From a virus, in the IMG/VR virus record IMGVR_UViG_3300029985_000091, positions 1-37,957 of that record: 37,957 nt of DNA, one strand, 5' to 3'. The position numbers were made by a program, and so were the translations under genes. The notes under the pieces are model-generated. The model was not told where the DNA came from. It made no database searches and saw only the letters and a list, made by a program, of their open reading frames with translations. This document shows positions 3,681-36,126 of this stretch, in pieces (within the stretch, counting starts at the first letter, position 1; every line of letters begins with the position of its first letter).

Positions 3681-4492
3681 GAATTATTTGCTTTTTTTAA
3701 CGATTCGGCGTTCGTTTTCAACAATTCAGCAGCAATCTGGGCGCGTTTAGAAAGTGTTTCTATTGCTTCGTTGGCGTGTTTCGTAAGTATTTTCGAAGCG
3801 GTATCTGCCGCTATCTCAATATCTTTAGAAGCCTTTTCGCTGGCAGTAGTAATTAATTGAGCCGCGTCTTTAATCGCGTATTTAATCGCGTCAGTTGAGT
3901 TAATCAACCTAATAGAAGCAATGTACCCTGTTTTTTCGGTTTTACAGGCCGCGCAAAATACTTTTATTATCTTCCCCTCTCCATCTACGATATTATAAGT
4001 GTCTTCGGCGTTAATTCCGTCTTTTACCGAAGCAATCCAATTATGTATCACGCGCTCCCTATCATTGCTTTCTACAATATTTTTCCATCCATCTCCCAAC
4101 ACAAATGCCAAATCCCTCTTAACCAAGGCAAGATACGCGGTATTAGCCCAAACACATTTTCCTTCGGCGTCACTCTCGAAAATGGCGACATCTTGGTTAT
4201 CTAACATCCATCTTTGGCGGTAGAAGATTTTTTCTGTCAATTCTGTATTCTTGGCTAACTGTTCAAAAGATTTGTTGATTTTGTCCTTGATTGAAGTTCC
4301 GTGATTTGGAGTGACTTCGAGGAAGATTTTTTCAATTTTAGATTGCATTTCTTCGTAATAGAGGAATTTAGATTTGATAGCCCGTATAAGTTTCATAAAT
4401 TTATGAAATACAAGTGGTATAAATGTCACGGCGGCGGTAATAATCCCCACGATGTAATACACTGGCTCGGCGGACGATATAGGTATAATCAT
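3677..4492 (-). CDS. Membrane-anchored PAS-domain protein with helical C-terminus, 271 aa
   Basis: Three parts are visible. An N-terminal hydrophobic segment (about 11-31) should anchor it in the inner membrane and is followed by a basic stretch. A PAS domain (about 92-200) begins RQRWMLDNQDVAIFESDAEG and includes the VWANTAYLALV and GWKNIV...DRERV segments typical of S-box PAS folds. An Ala-rich, charged helical tail (about 205-268) could form a coiled coil. No histidine kinase, GGDEF or methyl-accepting signature is present, so it may sense a ligand or redox state and signal through oligomerisation. Such PAS proteins occur in environmental phages, but their role is unknown. It lies upstream of a promoter for the next gene. 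Confidence 0.75.
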   Translation of the reverse strand: MIIPISSAEPVYYIVGIITAAVTFIPLVFHKFMKLIRAIKSKFLYYEEMQSKIEKIFLEVTPNHGTSIKDKINKSFEQLAKNTELTEKIFYRQRWMLDNQDVAIFESDAEGKCVWANTAYLALVKRDLAFVLGDGWKNIVESNDRERVIHNWIASVKDGINAEDTYNIVDGEGKIIKVFCAACKTEKTGYIASIRLINSTDAIKYAIKDAAQLITTASEKASKDIEIAADTASKILTKHANEAIETLSKRAQIAAELLKTNAESLKKANNS

Positions 4493-4559
4493 CCTTTATT
4501 TACACAAAAATTAGGTTAAGACCTGATTAGGTGTTGTACTATTAGTAGAAGTACGGGGA

Positions 4560-5447
4560 TTATTTTAAATTGAGAAACTCTTCTATCTGCCAGAAGTGGT
4601 TTTTGACCCATTCGCGGCCAAGTTCGTCGCGTTGTTGAAGTGCTTTAGGAGAAGTGTCATCAAGTCCCAGAGGATTTTTTACTTTTGGGTTAATGGAAAG
4701 ATAGTTGTCTCCGAGGATTTGTTTGCATTGATAATCTGAATCTTCTGTTCCGCCCGTAAAGAGAATTGAGAATACTTTAATTAAATTTTTTAAAGCACCG
4801 CAGTTGATATACTGCTCTGGATTATCTTTTGCGGGGACATCGCCGCATCCTAGAGAAAGAATTTTAATGTCTTTTAAATCCCAACCCAACTTAACAGCTT
4901 CGGCCAAAGCGCAAACTTCAGGGTTGTTCGCGAACAATCCACCATCAAAAAATACATGACCGTCGTGTTTGAACGCAGGAAAATATAGTGGGGCGCTGCT
5001 GCTGGCACGAGTCGCTACCCAAAGAGGATAATCTTTGCCGTCAAAACTCTTAAAAAAGAAAGGGTCTTCTGAAACGAGGTCAAAAGTCGGGATAAGTAAT
5101 TTTGTTTTGCAATCTTTGAGGGTTTTGTTCCCGAATTTTCCTTTAAGAATTCCTTCTATAATACCAGCTTTATACTTTGGAGAAAACAAGCCGAAATCAT
5201 ACCATTCTCTATGAAAAATTACAGGAGCATTATCAGAAAAGAATTGGAGGCAGTCTTGACTAGGAATTCCAATAGATAAAAGCCCTCCGACAATCGCCCC
5301 GATGCTAGTGCCGCTAATCATCGAAAATATATCACAACATTTTTTACCGCTAACCCGTTCAATTTCTTTGATTAGGTGTGTTGGTAACTCGCCATTGCAG
5401 CCACCTCCCGAAATTATTAGAATGTATTTAGTTTTCGACTTCTTCAC
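4560..5447 (-). CDS. Patatin-like phospholipase, ~295 aa
   Basis: A patatin/FabD-type acyl hydrolase. It has the oxyanion loop SGGGCNGE (about 13-20), the nucleophile elbow GTSIG (Ser about 48) and the catalytic DGG (Asp about 168) followed by LFANNP, so the Ser-Asp dyad is complete. Members cleave acyl chains from phospholipids; bacterial relatives include toxins and CapV-type CBASS effectors. I place the start at the GTG at 5447, before KKSKTKYILIISGGG. This removes a 37-base overlap with the beta-barrel gene and puts a GTGTAAT box a few bases upstream; an in-frame ATG at 5501 would add 18 residues. Role inferred: membrane attack in lysis, or a defence-type effector. Confidence 0.8.
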   Translation of the reverse strand: MKKSKTKYILIISGGGCNGELPTHLIKEIERVSGKKCCDIFSMISGTSIGAIVGGLLSIGIPSQDCLQFFSDNAPVIFHREWYDFGLFSPKYKAGIIEGILKGKFGNKTLKDCKTKLLIPTFDLVSEDPFFFKSFDGKDYPLWVATRASSSAPLYFPAFKHDGHVFFDGGLFANNPEVCALAEAVKLGWDLKDIKILSLGCGDVPAKDNPEQYINCGALKNLIKVFSILFTGGTEDSDYQCKQILGDNYLSINPKVKNPLGLDDTSPKALQQRDELGREWVKNHFWQIEEFLNLK

Positions 5448-12583: not shown

Positions 12584-12633
12584 TGATGGAGCCGCCCGCA
12601 TCGAAGCGGGGTGCAGACCTTATCCTAAATACG
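12584..12633 (-). pseudogene. Degenerate tRNA-like 3' half
   Basis: On the minus strand an anticodon-arm-like CCGTA-TTTAGGA-TAAGG (one mismatch, anticodon position TAG) is followed by a strong T-arm-like hairpin CCCGC-TTCGAT-GCGGG (loop six instead of seven) and CGGCTCC-A-TCA, in the register of an acceptor strand and CCA-like end. No complementary 5' acceptor strand (GGAGCCG) and no D arm are present, so it is at best a tRNA remnant or mimic. Confidence 0.3.
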
Positions 12634-12768
12634 GCAACTACAAGTTTATCAACTTTTTATTTCGGATGGATATACTAATTGAAAAATTCACCACCCATAA
12701 TCCATTATTTTTTAACATTTCAACGGATAATAATGTTTTTTGTCCAATGATTACGCTCTATTTCTTTA

Positions 12769-12960
12769 TCAGACTTCCAGAGTAGAACGGACGGCGTAGT
12801 TTACGCCATGACTTCTTGCCGGTCGAAGCTCATACAAGCGACGAAGGCCAGACTCTTGATTGCGTTGGCAATTAAGTTTTTTGTTGGTTTTTACTGAGCC
12901 ACCAACACTCAGACTTGCTCCATATTTCAAATAACGAATGTCGAAACCTTTCGGCCCCAT
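12769..12960 (-). CDS. Small basic hypothetical protein, 63 aa
   Basis: Starts MGPKGFDIRYLKYGASLSVG and continues with SVKTNKKLNCQRN and SGLRRLYELRPARSHG. The repeated basic Arg/Lys patches suggest nucleic-acid binding, but the family is unknown. Two promoter-like elements precede it: TTGACA-17-TAATAT at 13004-12976 and a GTGTAAT box ending seven bases before the ATG. It lies downstream of the 55-aa gene on the same strand. Confidence 0.55.
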   Translation of the reverse strand: MGPKGFDIRYLKYGASLSVGGSVKTNKKLNCQRNQESGLRRLYELRPARSHGVNYAVRSTLEV

Positions 12961-13162: not shown

Positions 13163-16099
13163 TCAAATCTTGGTTAATTCACACGCTCCATTTTGACATG
13201 ATGCCTCTGCCAAATGTAATGTCGCATCGTCTTCCTCCTGCAATTTTTTATAATCCACACGAGTCCAATTTTTGATTAATTCATTAAATTTAATTTCATC
13301 TTCTGGGGTCGATACTTCTTCCATTGGTGCTTGTTTATAAATCTTATCGCCAGAATAAGGTAATAATGAAACGGCTGTAAAGTCTTTTTGGTTTTCGAAA
13401 AGATACTTGGTTACTTCTTCCCATTCATTATCTTTTACCATTACAGTACAAGATACGCTATGATGAAGTGGTTTTTTATTCGCTTCTGTCGTCCCAGTCT
13501 GAACCCAGTTTTCTTGGGTAAGTTTTATTAATTTGAGATGTTCGATGGCGGTCAAATCTTTTTTGACCTTAAAAGTTGCGGGGACTTCAATAGGAAAAGT
13601 AATTACTTCGTCGGTTTTATTTGCGCTCCACTGACTTTCTTCGCAAGCGTGCGGATTGTATAGTTTAAAAAATTTAAAAATATTATCATCTTTATTAACT
13701 TGTATCCGGCGGAAATATTTCTTAGCGTGATGGGCATGAATTCCAGAAGAGGCCGACAATACTATGCTATTTGTTCCCTCTGGTTTAACGCACGTTACTC
13801 TAGCGGCTTGATTGACGCCGATTTTTTTAGCCCAAGTTTTATTTGTATCAACCGCTACTTTAGCGGCTTCTTTTTGATGTTTTTCATTAAAAAGTATTTC
13901 CGGCGAGTCAAACATTCCTGTTATACTCACTCCCAAAAGGCTTTCTTCACGAGACAGTTCTTCAGAGGTGTGTCCTAGATATGGGAATGAAGTATAAGCG
14001 GCTTGCAGAGTTCCTATTAAAGAAGCCGCCCAAGAAGCGTCTTTAAAATCTTGTAGGGATGTTATTTTAGTTCCATTAATAGAAGTCAGGTTACAAAACT
14101 GGTATCCAGTTCTTCCGTCTGATGTTACTGGAATGAATGAAATTTCGTAGCAGTTTGATACATTGCAACCCTGCGTCCAATAAGTATGAGATGGATTATC
14201 TACGGTGATATCGAAAACTTCCTCTTCCGAGACCAAATTAATAGAAACAACATCATAATTATTTTTTACTTTATTTTTTAGAGTAGTCGAATTGATGATT
14301 TTCGACAATTTTTCGTTTTTATATCCCTGTATAAAACCTATATTTTGTTGAAACTTCGCTCGGTCAGTCGAAATATTTAAATCGTAACTCTGTTTGCACT
14401 CATAAATACCATTTGAAAATTCAACTTGGGTTGGTCTATTAGTCGTATAATATGATTTGATTCCAAGAGAAGATAACATTGTTTGAACCTGTTCAATAAC
14501 TTTAAAAGACGATGCCTTGAGTGTAACTCTATTTCCACAAATGCTCCCATTGGCAGAATAAAGCCCTCGTAAAAATGAACACCTTTTGGTATAACTACCA
14601 TAAAAAAATCTATCTGGGATACTACGATTATAGGTTTTTGGAATTTCATCGTGAGTAATGGTAGTTTTGACTTGATAAGCAAAATCGTGTAATCCCGGTC
14701 TGTGTTTTATGATAAAATCCGCCACCTCACTTTTAAAGTAGTCGTGGTCATTTTCTCCCAAGCACAAATGAACTAAATTATTACTTGCCTCATGCACCGA
14801 CCCATCTCCAAAAACCAGTCCGTCCATAATATCTTGAGTATCTAAAACACAGATTGACTTATATTCTCCACTTAAAATATCAATAGATTCGCAATCTTTG
14901 GCTTCAATCTTTTGTCCATTAGAAATTAATTTATGATTTTCGGTTCCATAAAAAACTCCCGCTGTCGTTCTATACTCGTAGACCTTTTTAACACCAGTTG
15001 ACCATTTTTTGACAATTTTAGTCCAACCCTCAGAAGACCAAATTTCATCTCCAATATTAACATCTTTTAATTCTTTGATACCATTTTGGGTCAAAAGTTT
15101 TGCCCATTTTGGCTGACATGGATTTAATAATTGCTGCTCGTTTTCCACATAAATAAATCCCGGTTCTCCAAATTCTTTTGTTTTTCCTATAAGCGTTTTA
15201 AATTCTTTAAGGGTTGTTTTGCCACGAATGATAATTGCAGAGTTATTACTTCTGGCTCGTTGAGGATTATCCTTAAACCAATTACCAGTTTTGGCGTTCA
15301 TCATATCCTCATCTCCAGCATCAAAAATAACAGAACAAGCAGAACGTCTGATACCGCCCGATAAAACTGCATCACTCATATGCATTAAAATATCATAAGC
15401 ATCAATGGTTTTAAGGCGGGTTTGATGTTTATCCTCTATAATAGCGTCCAAAAGTATTTTGATTTTCTTGTGAGCATTTTTCAAACCCTTATATCCGGGG
15501 GCTTTCCCACCGCCAGTTTTAAGCGGTGCGCCGCGCGGACGGATTTTGCTATAATCAAAAACGATTTTCCTTCCAGAATAGGCTGTGTTTTTAAAATAAC
15601 AATTTAATAAAGCCTCTAAAGAATCAGCCCATCCTTCTATTGAGTCTTGGACGGGATAAGTAAGAACAGAGCCAGTTTTGTCATTTTCATTTACTAGGTC
15701 GGGGAGACGACCAAGAAAATATTTATTCAAACCAAATCCAATTCCAGTTCCACATAGAAGAATATAAAATGATTCAGCAAAAGAACGTATAGAGTCAATA
15801 TGTCTAACCCCACAATTGTAGATTCTGGCGTTATGTTGCTCAATGGCTTTACCACCAAATTGGGCCGAACGCATTGAGGGGCTTACCTTTTTTTCTCTAA
15901 CAAAATCAAAAGCCTTAATTATTTCTTGTTTGTCTGGTTCTGATAAAAACTTAAATTTCTTGAGGTGCATCTTCTCAACGCGGCTAATTGTTTCTTCCCA
16001 TGTCTCCCGACGGAGTTTTTTTTCATCATATCTTGCATATTTTGAGGTAAAGGTAAAGTTCGCCATTTCTTCCAAGGCGTTAAATTTCATTTTATCCAT
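13163..16099 (-). CDS. Class II (B12-dependent) ribonucleotide reductase with intein, 978-aa precursor
   Basis: The extein matches the monomeric adenosylcobalamin-dependent ribonucleoside-triphosphate reductase: NCGVRH with the first redox Cys at 96, LLCGTGIGFGL (115-124), the catalytic CYEI (Cys650 in the precursor) and YQFCNLTS with the partner Cys669, then VKPEGTNS, and a C-terminal C968-x4-C973 pair (SCQNGACEL) that recycles the active site. It makes deoxynucleotides without oxygen or a small subunit but needs vitamin B12 from the host. An intein (residues 328-649) splits NP|CYEI; the spliced enzyme would be about 656 aa. The 55-aa gene follows immediately. Confidence 0.93.
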   Translation of the reverse strand: MDKMKFNALEEMANFTFTSKYARYDEKKLRRETWEETISRVEKMHLKKFKFLSEPDKQEIIKAFDFVREKKVSPSMRSAQFGGKAIEQHNARIYNCGVRHIDSIRSFAESFYILLCGTGIGFGLNKYFLGRLPDLVNENDKTGSVLTYPVQDSIEGWADSLEALLNCYFKNTAYSGRKIVFDYSKIRPRGAPLKTGGGKAPGYKGLKNAHKKIKILLDAIIEDKHQTRLKTIDAYDILMHMSDAVLSGGIRRSACSVIFDAGDEDMMNAKTGNWFKDNPQRARSNNSAIIIRGKTTLKEFKTLIGKTKEFGEPGFIYVENEQQLLNPCQPKWAKLLTQNGIKELKDVNIGDEIWSSEGWTKIVKKWSTGVKKVYEYRTTAGVFYGTENHKLISNGQKIEAKDCESIDILSGEYKSICVLDTQDIMDGLVFGDGSVHEASNNLVHLCLGENDHDYFKSEVADFIIKHRPGLHDFAYQVKTTITHDEIPKTYNRSIPDRFFYGSYTKRCSFLRGLYSANGSICGNRVTLKASSFKVIEQVQTMLSSLGIKSYYTTNRPTQVEFSNGIYECKQSYDLNISTDRAKFQQNIGFIQGYKNEKLSKIINSTTLKNKVKNNYDVVSINLVSEEEVFDITVDNPSHTYWTQGCNVSNCYEISFIPVTSDGRTGYQFCNLTSINGTKITSLQDFKDASWAASLIGTLQAAYTSFPYLGHTSEELSREESLLGVSITGMFDSPEILFNEKHQKEAAKVAVDTNKTWAKKIGVNQAARVTCVKPEGTNSIVLSASSGIHAHHAKKYFRRIQVNKDDNIFKFFKLYNPHACEESQWSANKTDEVITFPIEVPATFKVKKDLTAIEHLKLIKLTQENWVQTGTTEANKKPLHHSVSCTVMVKDNEWEEVTKYLFENQKDFTAVSLLPYSGDKIYKQAPMEEVSTPEDEIKFNELIKNWTRVDYKKLQEEDDATLHLAEASCQNGACELTKI
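14153..15118 (-). mobile_element. Class 1 LAGLIDADG intein in the reductase, ~322 aa
   Basis: Residues 328-649 of the precursor. It begins with Cys (CQPKWAKLLTQNG), has a block-B GTENHKLI, two LAGLIDADG-type endonuclease motifs (IMDGLVFGDGS, about 424-434, and LRGLYSANGS, about 510-519), and ends VFDITVDNPSHTYW...CNVSN before the +1 Cys650. The penultimate residue is Ser rather than the usual His. Insertion precisely before the catalytic cysteine means that only spliced protein is active. Confidence 0.9.
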
Positions 16100-30680: not shown

Positions 30681-32864
30681 ATGGCAAAAGAAAAAATACA
30701 AAAACCAGAAGAAAAAACAGATTCACAACAAGCAAGGATGCAAGCCGTTCTCGACAAAAACGGCCACTTCAACGACATTGAGCCTCAGTCATACGAAATA
30801 TCAACTGGTAGCCTTAAATTCGACCTACAACTCGGCGGGGGGTTGCATAACACCATTGTCCGTTGCGCGGGTCCAGCCGAAGCAGGTAAAGCACAGCCGA
30901 TTGATAGTAAAGTAATGACCCCCTATGGATGGAAATCAATCGGGGATTTGAAACAGAGCTGTCTTGTTATTGGTTCCGATGGGAAAGCAAAACAAGTTCT
31001 TAATATTTTCCCCCAAGGGATAAAAAAAATTAATAAGGTTATATTTGAAGACTATACAGAGGTTTATTGTTGCGATGAGCATCTGTGGCTGACCAGAAAC
31101 CAAAATGACAGAGAGCGAAATAAAAAAGGTTCAGTAAAGACGACCGGCTTTCTTAAGCAAACGTTAAAAATAGGCGACCATAAAAATCATTCCATTCCTT
31201 ATGTTAAGGCTGTCGAGTTTAAAACCCAAAATGAAAAACTACCAATAGACCCATATGTATTAGGGTTATTGCTTGGAGACGGTTCTTTTAGAAGGAAGAA
31301 TGAGGTTTCATATACTACGGCTGACCAACAATTGTTGAACGAGATAGACAAGAGACTTAAATTCTCTGATAAAAGAATTAAAAAAATAGGAAAAACAAGG
31401 AGATACGAATATTATATCTATTCCCCGAAATTAAGAAATACCCTTACCGAGATGGGATTATGGGGTAAGTTGTCTTATGATAAGTTTATTCCTGAAACTT
31501 ACTTATACTCCTCTATTCTCAACAGAAAAAAAATTCTACAGGGATTAATGGATACCGATGGCAATAATACTCGGCCAGATAAAAATAGTGGAGCGGAATT
31601 TTCTTCGACATCCATTAAATTAGCAGAACAAGTAGTCTTTTTAGTAAGAAGTTTAGGAGGGCGAGCCACTTACAAAAGCAGAATTACATCCTTTACTCAT
31701 AAAGGAATCAAAAAGAAAGGTCATATAAGTTACAGAGTTAGAATGAGTTTTTCAAATTTTTGTCCCTTTATTCTCGAACGCAAAAAAAATCTCTATCAAA
31801 ATAGAATTTTTGAATCCGAAAAACTGATAGTAGACATCCAACCCGCCGGAGAAAAAGAATGCGTCTGTATTCAAGTTGACTCACCAGATAATCTTTACCT
31901 AACCGAGGGATTTAATCTTACCCATAATACTTCATTTTCCCTAAATGTCGCTAAAATATTTCTTTCAGAAAAAAATCGGCGTGGAGTTTACTTTCTTTCA
32001 GATAAAGACCTTAGCGAAAACCTTCTTGAAAGATGTGGGGTAAAATTTGTGGATAAACTAGAGGATTGGGAAGATGGGACCTGTTATATTATTCGTACCC
32101 GCGAATATGAGACCGTTTGCAACACAATTAAAGGATTAATCGGTTCAGGCGGAAAATATTTTACAGATAAACAATACATTTTTGTTCTGGACTCGATGGA
32201 TAATTTTGCCCCTAGAGCGGCTTTCGACGTTGACTTTGGAGAGTCTTCTCAAAAAGGCGGAATTACGGCTATTACTTCACATTTTTTTAAATGTTTTAAT
32301 ATCTTATTGCCGCGACTTGGCCACACGACCATAATGATTTCTCAATTTCGAGATACAGTTCAAATTGGGAAACAGCAAGCCGCTTGGAAACAAATGAAGA
32401 CCTCCGGCGGAAGGAGTCTTGAACACGCCGCTTCTTGGGCTTTTGAATTTCTACCAGTTCAGAATGGTCAGATTGACATGTTTTGGGACGGCGAAATGTA
32501 TAAAAGCAAAAAGATTGGACATAACTGCATTATACGACTACAAAAAACGACCAACGAGACAACGGGAGAGACAGTAAGGTATCCTATTATCTATGGGCGT
32601 GAAGCCGGAAACTCAATATGGGTTGAAAAAGAATTGTATGATTTGGGTTTGTTTTATCAAATGTTAAAAAGCAAGGGTTCTTGGATTGAATTTGATTCAT
32701 CCGTTCTTAAAGAAATTCGAGAGATTAACCCCGATTTCCCCGAAAAGATACAGGGCGAAGATAAATGCGTAAAACTTTTTGAAGCCAACCCAAAAGTATC
32801 ACAGTTTCTATATACTAAAATTAAAAAATTAGTGGCCGGAGCAACTTCAAATGAGGCTCTATAA
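30681..32864 (+). CDS. RecA/UvsX-like recombinase with intein, 727-aa precursor
   Basis: The extein is a RecA-type recombinase: a YEISTGSLKFDLQLGGGL strand-loop, a Walker A (GPAEAGK|TS) split by the intein after Lys70, a Walker B region YIFVLDSMDNF, and SGGRSLEHAASWAFEFLP in the DNA-binding L2 area, ending helical and basic. It should coat single-stranded DNA and pair homologous strands for phage recombination-dependent replication. The spliced protein would be about 381 aa, near UvsX length. The ATP site exists only after splicing. Overlaps the next gene by 14 bases. Confidence 0.9.
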   Translation: MAKEKIQKPEEKTDSQQARMQAVLDKNGHFNDIEPQSYEISTGSLKFDLQLGGGLHNTIVRCAGPAEAGKAQPIDSKVMTPYGWKSIGDLKQSCLVIGSDGKAKQVLNIFPQGIKKINKVIFEDYTEVYCCDEHLWLTRNQNDRERNKKGSVKTTGFLKQTLKIGDHKNHSIPYVKAVEFKTQNEKLPIDPYVLGLLLGDGSFRRKNEVSYTTADQQLLNEIDKRLKFSDKRIKKIGKTRRYEYYIYSPKLRNTLTEMGLWGKLSYDKFIPETYLYSSILNRKKILQGLMDTDGNNTRPDKNSGAEFSSTSIKLAEQVVFLVRSLGGRATYKSRITSFTHKGIKKKGHISYRVRMSFSNFCPFILERKKNLYQNRIFESEKLIVDIQPAGEKECVCIQVDSPDNLYLTEGFNLTHNTSFSLNVAKIFLSEKNRRGVYFLSDKDLSENLLERCGVKFVDKLEDWEDGTCYIIRTREYETVCNTIKGLIGSGGKYFTDKQYIFVLDSMDNFAPRAAFDVDFGESSQKGGITAITSHFFKCFNILLPRLGHTTIMISQFRDTVQIGKQQAAWKQMKTSGGRSLEHAASWAFEFLPVQNGQIDMFWDGEMYKSKKIGHNCIIRLQKTTNETTGETVRYPIIYGREAGNSIWVEKELYDLGLFYQMLKSKGSWIEFDSSVLKEIREINPDFPEKIQGEDKCVKLFEANPKVSQFLYTKIKKLVAGATSNEAL
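30891..31928 (+). mobile_element. Ala1 (class 3-like) LAGLIDADG intein in RecA Walker A, 346 aa
   Basis: Residues 71-416 of the precursor. It starts with Ala71 (AQPIDSKVMTPYGWKSIGDL) instead of Cys/Ser and ends NLTHN before Thr417. Block B reads CDEHLWL with Trp136 two residues after His134, and block F reads ECVCIQVDSPDNLYLT with Cys396 in the place of the usual Asp. Ala1, block-B Trp and block-F Cys are marks of class 3 inteins, which use the block-F Cys as first nucleophile. Two LAGLIDADG motifs (VLGLLLGDGS, LQGLMDTDGN) mark a homing endonuclease. Confidence 0.85.
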
Positions 32865-33264
32865 TACATACGGTAAATTAGTTAATAAAAATGTCTCCCA
32901 ATATTTGATTGATTGGGACGGTAAGAGTCGGTCGAAGTTACAGTTTAATGTGAAGCAATTTCTTAAGCCATTTTGGTCTAATATGCTTTGCTACGAAGAA
33001 TTCCCTGCCTTCGGGTCTTTATTGAAGGTAGATATCGTTAATCTTACCCTAAAGATAGCAGTTGAAATTGACGGCCAGCAACATAATGAGATGGGATGGT
33101 TTCATAACAACAGCCCCTCTAAGTATCTCGCCGCAATTAAAAATGATATAAAAAAAGACGCTTGGCTTGAGAAGAACGAATTTCAGTTGGTCAGAATCAA
33201 TTATGATGAGGTAGACAAACTTTCCCCCGCCTTCTTCAAAGAAAAATTTGATATTACTTTGTAA
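32851..33264 (+). CDS. PD-(D/E)XK endonuclease (Vsr/DUF559-like), 137 aa
   Basis: The core LLKVDIVNLTLKIAVEIDGQ, followed by HNE, IKNDIKKDAWLEKN and FQLVRINYDEV, has the D-x(n)-E-I-D-G-Q-Q-H pattern of the Vsr-like/DUF559 nuclease group, where D and E bind Mg2+ and the final R/Y region completes the fold. The N-terminal third is basic and could grip DNA. It likely nicks or cuts DNA during recombination or repair, in line with its place right after recA (14-base overlap). It may also be a homing-type or host-DNA-degrading nuclease. Confidence 0.75.
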   Translation: MRLYNTYGKLVNKNVSQYLIDWDGKSRSKLQFNVKQFLKPFWSNMLCYEEFPAFGSLLKVDIVNLTLKIAVEIDGQQHNEMGWFHNNSPSKYLAAIKNDIKKDAWLEKNEFQLVRINYDEVDKLSPAFFKEKFDITL

Positions 33265-35262: not shown

Positions 35263-36126
35263 ATGAACTTTTATACTAAAATCAAAGATACTATTCCGAA
35301 ATTACCGGGTATATATTTATTCACAAATATCATAGATAATAAAAGATATGTTGGCATGAGTACAAATTTAAAAAGACGCATTGCAGCATATTATTACAAA
35401 AATCATCCAAACAATCCAATTAATCATGCAATGATTAAATATGGTAAAGATAATTTTAAAATAGAAATCCTTCACTTCTTTGATGATAAGAACGTAGATA
35501 TTTTGGAGGTGGTTGCGTTGGAAACAGCGTTTATTGACTTCTATAAATCATTAACAGAGTTTGGACACGGATATAATGTATGTCTAATCGGTAGAAATTT
35601 TAATTTGAGAGTTTTTTCTGGAGAAGAAAAGAAAAGAATATACGCATCAAGAAGCGGGAAAAACCATAAGGGTTTCGGAAAACACCTTTCAAAAAAAATA
35701 CGTAATAAAATCTCTCATTCCCACGAGGGCAAGAAACTATCTATAGACACAAAAAATAAAATATCAAGTTCACTTAAAAATACCAGACTAGGAGAAGATA
35801 ATCCGTTTTTTGGGAAGACACACTCTAAAAAAGTTAGAGAAAGAATCTCTAAAGCTAATATGGGGAACAAATATAATGTCGGTAGAATTATGCCAGAGCA
35901 TATAAAATTAAAAATCAAAGCCACGTGCAAATCCAAATTAAGTAACAATAACAAAGACAAAAGAAAGTCTGTTAAACAAATAGATAAAAAGACTGGCCAA
36001 ATTATAAAAATATGGGATGGAATTAGAATAGCGTCAAAAGCATTAAATATAGAAGCCGGTGGAATTGTGAAGGTCTGTAAGGGAAAAGCCAAAACTTCTG
36101 GCGGTTTCAAATGGGAATACGTATGA
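35263..36126 (+). CDS. GIY-YIG homing endonuclease with NUMOD repeats, 287 aa
   Basis: An N-terminal GIY-YIG nuclease: PGIYLFTNIIDNKRYVGMST (GIY ... YVG), the NLKRRI helix with its Arg, and ALETAFIDFYKSL with the catalytic Glu. The middle and C-terminal parts hold DNA-recognition repeats of the NUMOD3 kind (the basic ISHSHEGKKLS and ISSSLKNTRLGEDNPFFGKT segments) and a final NUMOD1-like ENCR-type block (QIDKKTGQIIKIWDGIRIAS ... GGFKWEYV). It is a free-standing homing enzyme sitting between dnaB and primase, overlapping the primase start by 4 bases. Confidence 0.92.
   Translation: MNFYTKIKDTIPKLPGIYLFTNIIDNKRYVGMSTNLKRRIAAYYYKNHPNNPINHAMIKYGKDNFKIEILHFFDDKNVDILEVVALETAFIDFYKSLTEFGHGYNVCLIGRNFNLRVFSGEEKKRIYASRSGKNHKGFGKHLSKKIRNKISHSHEGKKLSIDTKNKISSSLKNTRLGEDNPFFGKTHSKKVRERISKANMGNKYNVGRIMPEHIKLKIKATCKSKLSNNNKDKRKSVKQIDKKTGQIIKIWDGIRIASKALNIEAGGIVKVCKGKAKTSGGFKWEYV

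Follow-up and report, generated by a model that had tools for sequence, protein, structure and literature searches.

We report an apparently mobile class 3 intein at the Lys/Thr junction of the Walker A motif of a phage UvsX-type recombinase, a reading, splicing and homing included, to which we assign a probability of about 93%. It lies in a 37,957-base virus contig (IMG/VR record IMGVR_UViG_3300029985_000091, a fragment of about 38 kb), the whole of which is referred to here as the window.

The interrupted recombinase gene

The host gene at 30681–32864 (+) is one intact open reading frame of 727 amino acids with zero internal stops, in which residues 1–70 and 417–727 form a UvsX/RecA-type recombinase and the intein splits the Walker A motif between Lys70 and Thr417 (GPAEAGK/TS; the slash marks the insertion point here and below). 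The features of this ORF are as follows:

30681–30890 (+): N-extein, UvsX/RecA-like, residues 1–70, ending in GPAEAGK (Walker A is intact in the empty-site homologue L186)
30891–31928 (+): class 3 intein, 346 aa, precursor residues 71–416, with the LAGLIDADG domain inside
30891–30893 (+): Ala1 (A:1), precursor Ala71, at the start AQPIDS; not Cys, Ser or Thr
31080–31088 (+): block B His64 (B:10)-Leu-Trp66 (B:12), precursor H134 and W136 (EHLW), as defined in PMC5222942
31230–31790 (+): LAGLIDADG homing endonuclease domain, intein residues ~114–300, with approximate limits from Pfam, a profile match to PI-SceI 186–389 and residue conservation
31866–31868 (+): block F Cys326 (F:4), precursor C396 (ECVCIQV), the class 3 branch-point cysteine
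31920–31928 (+): block G Thr344-His345-Asn346 (THN), comprising the G:5 Thr of the WCT signature, penultimate His and terminal Asn
31929–32864 (+): C-extein of UvsX, precursor residues 417–727, in which Thr417 is both the +1 nucleophile and the Walker A Thr

The host protein was matched by phrog_97 'UvsX-like recombinase' (E 1e-23) and weakly by TIGR02012 RecA, and when the joined exteins were compared with the PDB they matched RecA chains (E 9e-32). Together with the empty-site homologue, the phrog_97 and PDB matches identify a RecA-family sequence whose Walker A motif is whole once the intein is removed. Isolated phages provided weak matches only to the window UvsX, which has a large family of relatives in IMG/VR. 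The sequence data support a UvsX/RecA-like recombinase carrying an intein in its P-loop, and the original prediction, which had an intein splitting a RecA Walker A motif at 30891–31928, was exact in its coordinates and residue numbers, with the first Ala, H134 and W136 in block B, C396 in block F and Thr417 at +1 all where it had placed them.

The class 3 signature

The WCT signature of class 3 inteins consists of Trp at B:12, Cys at F:4 and Thr at G:5, with Ser or Thr at +1 (PMC5222942; PMC7891396). Alignment shows this to be complete in the window intein as W66, C326 and T344 (precursor W136, C396 and T414), and the C-terminal end reads ...NLTHN416 followed by Thr417 at +1, such that the full class 3 set is present (A1, W B:12, C F:4, T G:5 and T+1, plus His B:10 and the terminal HN). 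It had been claimed earlier that Ile replaced the Thr of the triad, but this referred to the wrong position: the Ile follows the block-F Cys, and the Thr of WCT is G:5 (PMC5222942). The intein is more canonical than was then held, because this Thr is present as T414.

The pattern is not due to chance, since matches to the intein were found in 781 phage records, and in 553 of these they cover 80% or more of it. Among the matches listed, F:4 Cys and B:10 His were found in 165/165 related inteins, and B:12 was Trp in 160 and Phe in five of the 165; it should be noted that THN was a selection criterion for this set of 165 and its invariance there is not counted as evidence.

Several variants of the signature were seen. 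Phe replaces Trp B:12 in the L036, L038, L055, L057 and L063 inteins. Full WCT is accompanied by Cys at position 1 in the L054, L056, L066 and L067 inteins, and by Ser in those of L039, L048, L073, L086, L114, L118, L135, L141 and L151, so that the first nucleophiles of both class 1 and class 3 are present together in these proteins. The RNA ligase gene of Staphylococcus phage Alsa_1 (L021, 901–1935) also contains a class 3-like intein with Cys F:4 and THN, in which block B is EHII, lacking Trp B:12.

Class assignment

We undertook a phylogenetic analysis of 35 inteins, consisting of the window intein, 26 other class 3 inteins picked as its relatives and eight class 1 inteins, one of them the NrdJ intein of the window itself. 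The window intein was placed inside the class 3 group at 100/100, apart from the class 1 inteins, and as sister to the L101 intein at 100/97. Profile searches matched two class 3 inteins of known structure, Msm DnaB1 (6bs8) and Mch DnaB1 (6rix and 6riy), and the alignment with characterised class 3 inteins that had been proposed as a check agrees with the original class 3-like call. A class 1 assignment was rejected, as the window intein has Ala1 and not the Cys, Ser or Thr required at position 1, Cys at F:4 where all of the aligned class 1 inteins have Asp, and a position in the tree apart from them.

Ala at position 1 is common to classes 2 and 3 (PMC5222942), and the intein might be imagined to belong to class 2, with the +1 residue attacking directly and the block-F Cys incidental. 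However, class 2 inteins have neither an N-terminal nucleophile nor WCT/Cys F:4, and here the WCT triad is complete, Cys F:4 is found in all 165 relatives among the matches listed, and in a tree of class 3 and class 1 rows the intein falls within class 3 at 100/100. We rejected class 2 as extremely improbable. Every sequence criterion and the phylogeny support assignment to class 3.

Predicted fold and endonuclease

The original prediction of a LAGLIDADG endonuclease within the intein was confirmed by Pfam (LAGLIDADG_3, E 2e-10; Hom_end, E 2e-7) and by fold matches. Motif 1 is LGLLLGDG (D130) and motif 2 is LQGLMDTDG (D221 and D223), Lys198 is present, and D130, D223 and Lys198 are strongly conserved among related inteins. 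The AlphaFold model made with 40 homologues (mean pLDDT 95.0, pTM 0.93) has a complete Hint and LAGLIDADG fold, and in Foldseek it matched PI-SceI over its full length (E 2e-17), followed by I-DmoI, gp41-1 and the class 3 inteins of Mch and Msm DnaB. Sequence profiles likewise matched the endonuclease region of PI-SceI as well as the DnaB mini-inteins of class 3. With both motifs, the acidic residues and the fold found by Pfam, conservation and Foldseek, the endonuclease looks intact and we infer that it is active.

The empty site

The nearest UvsX relative among the matches listed, L186 (IMGVR_UViG_3300037264_002542; 58% identical), has an uninterrupted site (GMAEAGK/TSFS). The DNA at this position is GCTGGAAAA followed directly by ACTTCGTTTTCC in L186, and GCAGGTAAA, the intein and ACTTCATTTTCC in the window. 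Because the L186 site is uninterrupted with matching DNA flanks, the insertion is seen to be exact, falling precisely between the Lys and Thr codons. The gene order of L186 is like that of the window, with an epimerase-like gene upstream and a DUF559-like gene and DnaB-type helicase downstream, and differs by one additional gene upstream.

A profile search with the UvsX exteins recovered at least 80 related UvsX loci with an intact P-loop, though such a search favours uninterrupted genes and the frequencies of occupied and empty sites are not readable from it. Single-sequence queries with the intein or extein against viral contigs returned almost nothing, and profiles were needed.

Proposed splicing and homing

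The splicing steps we propose follow established class 3 biochemistry (PMC5222942, PMC7664689). By analogy, Cys396 (F:4), with His134 and Thr414 assisting and Trp136 packing against it, would attack the Lys70–Ala71 bond to form the block-F branched thioester; the acyl group would then pass to Thr417, Asn416 would cyclise to release the intein, and an O-to-N shift would join GPAEAGK to TS, restoring an active recombinase. The P-loop of the precursor would not be able to form until the intein leaves and, with its Walker A in two parts, unspliced UvsX should lack activity. The LAGLIDADG nuclease would cut intein-less uvsX at the Walker A codons, and the intein would be copied in by recombination that itself uses a recombinase of the interrupted kind. 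As T4 homing uses UvsX (PMC2988022), the spread of the window intein would need the interrupted UvsX, host RecA or the UvsX of another allele. It is conceivable, though we consider it improbable, that this amounts to a coupled device in which class 3 splicing gates active UvsX, UvsX performs the homing of the intein, and the intein regulates its own spread in co-infection; the gating might possibly arise from thiol-dependent splicing that is redox-sensitive, as in the mycobacterial DnaB inteins.

Splicing of the window intein is predicted from its sequence, and at least one class 3 intein has been described from a pseudogene (PMC3196547). A degenerate, splicing-dead intein that leaves uvsX a pseudogene in the window phage is nonetheless highly improbable, given the intact frame and C-extein, the presence of all catalytic residues of both intein and endonuclease, the confident predicted fold and a gene order that is the same as in the intein-less L186.

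Other UvsX hosts and the probable spread of the intein

Walker A K/T is a common site of class 3 inteins in P-loop ATPases. Most of the 164 class 3 intein places listed are GK/T or GK/S in varied ATPases, and a large PhoH-like RGR/T group is also found among them. Class 3 candidates numbered 562–590 in all, and the listing covered 80 per collection. At least two further UvsX lineages have a class 3 intein at the same Walker A codon, L101 and L088/L089. L101 (RXKA01000006.1) is a short contig of 3.1 kb that was assigned to a proteobacterial MAG but has the phage gene order of the window (UvsX, DUF559-like, small ORF); its N-extein is truncated, and its UvsX forms a long branch in the tree. The window and L101 share about 50% identity in their inteins and 27% in their C-exteins.

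Each of the three intein-bearing genes is paired with empty relatives in the UvsX tree (the window with L186 at 100/100), and every bootstrap requires three changes of intein state, with one origin in 0%. The simplest reading, which these data favour, is lateral homing between the uvsX genes of divergent phages, given the three changes on the UvsX tree and the sister relationship of the window and L101 inteins. The L088 intein suggests a separate invasion, since it groups not with these two but with the L059/L105 intein in a different host (SH-aLRT 93).

The use of an identical site by three UvsX lineages might also be explained by vertical inheritance of an intein ancestral to the UvsX family and lost from most lineages, with no recent homing, and the topology alone would allow the patchy pattern to be read as an ancient gain followed by repeated loss. 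We consider this unlikely, as the nearest relative L186 is empty, empty genes accompany every intein-bearing UvsX in the tree, the inteins of the window and L101 resemble each other more than their hosts do, and the L088 intein groups with one in another host. Under lateral homing, these genes show that a single Walker A codon has been invaded repeatedly within one gene family.

We note that the related phages L214, L215 and L217 (from about 4480–4560 onward) have an intein-less uvsX and a class 3 intein in the helicase-like gene just downstream.

Comparison with known inteins

The Mycobacterium tuberculosis RecA intein (PI-MtuI) is like the window intein in having a RecA-family host and a LAGLIDADG domain, and is a class 1 intein at a different RecA site; its chains match the class 3 profile at E of about 0.02–0.13 only. 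The Pyrococcus horikoshii RadA intein uses the ordinary class 1 pathway. It interrupts a RecA-family recombinase within the P-loop, as in the window, and shows that P-loop inteins in RecA-family proteins were already known from archaeal RadA, but unlike the window intein it is a mini-intein without an endonuclease (PMC5790916).

Among class 3 inteins, mycobacteriophage TerL1-a is inserted at Walker A Lys/Thr, a classic K/T site (PMC5050341), and the window intein belongs to the same broad group of phage P-loop ATPase inteins at this same site, with a UvsX/RecA recombinase as host in place of their terminase or helicase. The class 3 inteins of jumbo-phage helicases and terminases that we compared with it also have LAGLIDADG and are 33–38% identical to the window intein over the full length. 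By profile and fold matches Mch DnaB1 (6rix/6riy) and Msm DnaB1 (6bs8) share its class 3 Hint, but these are mini-inteins of 139–146 residues in the PDB chains from bacterial DnaB, compared with 346 aa in UvsX. Closest among the matches listed is the L101 intein, at the same UvsX site and with UvsX followed by the same DUF559-like gene, for which we found no publication.

Class 3 is one of the less common types of intein. It has many members, with 1701 in nr by 2020, of which 82.5% carry LAGLIDADG (PMC7891396), and the window intein is a well-formed representative of this established family in an apparently unreported host protein. Within the open-access literature we found no class 3 intein described in UvsX/RecA, although subscription papers or database entries could hold one. 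The widening of the host-protein range anticipated in the original prediction stands to the extent that no published case was found, and is tempered by K/T being a classic P-loop site and by the other UvsX lineages (at least two) in public data that carry the intein. Class 3 inteins are thereby extended to phage UvsX, the recombinase that drives homing in T4-type systems (PMC2988022), and the window and its empty-allele relative L186, in the same gene order, provide a clean pair for the study of homing and of class 3 splicing with native exteins.

Neighbouring genes and other mobile elements

A DUF559/PD-(D/E)XK-like ORF at 32851–33264 (+) begins within the final bases of uvsX. Essentially all of the related phage loci (at least 80; L186–L265) have a homologue directly after uvsX, whether or not an intein is nearby, and in L101 it is at 1969–2403. 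PHROGs labels relatives of this ORF 'homing endonuclease', but its conservation after uvsX with or without an intein makes it look like a core partner of UvsX in recombination, and we rejected it as part of the mobile element for its conservation beside intein-less uvsX genes.

The window contains a second intein of 322 aa (14153–15118) in the ORF at 13163–16099 (-), an adenosylcobalamin-type ribonucleotide reductase (TIGR02505) cut at NP/C. This is a class 1 intein, with Cys1, Asp at F:4 and the end NVSN/C lacking the penultimate His, and its second LAGLIDADG motif is altered (LRGLYSANG). Also present are four tRNA genes and a phage tmRNA gene at 12584–12958 (-), which matches RF00023 over the full model length (98.5 bits) and was not called by ARAGORN.

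An ORF for a GIY-YIG endonuclease of the group-I-intron type is found at 35263–36126 (+), with the DnaB-type helicase on one side and a DnaG-like primase on the other; Rfam identified no group I intron near it, and none in staphylococcal uvsX. In Staphylococcus phage phiIPLA-C1C (L006, 229–1345), a non-open insertion containing a LAGLIDADG ORF breaks uvsX immediately 3' of the Walker A Lys codon, and from its sequence an intron-like element appears to use the same Walker A site; a group I intron has been reported in the recombinase gene of fRuSau02 (PMC5618024).
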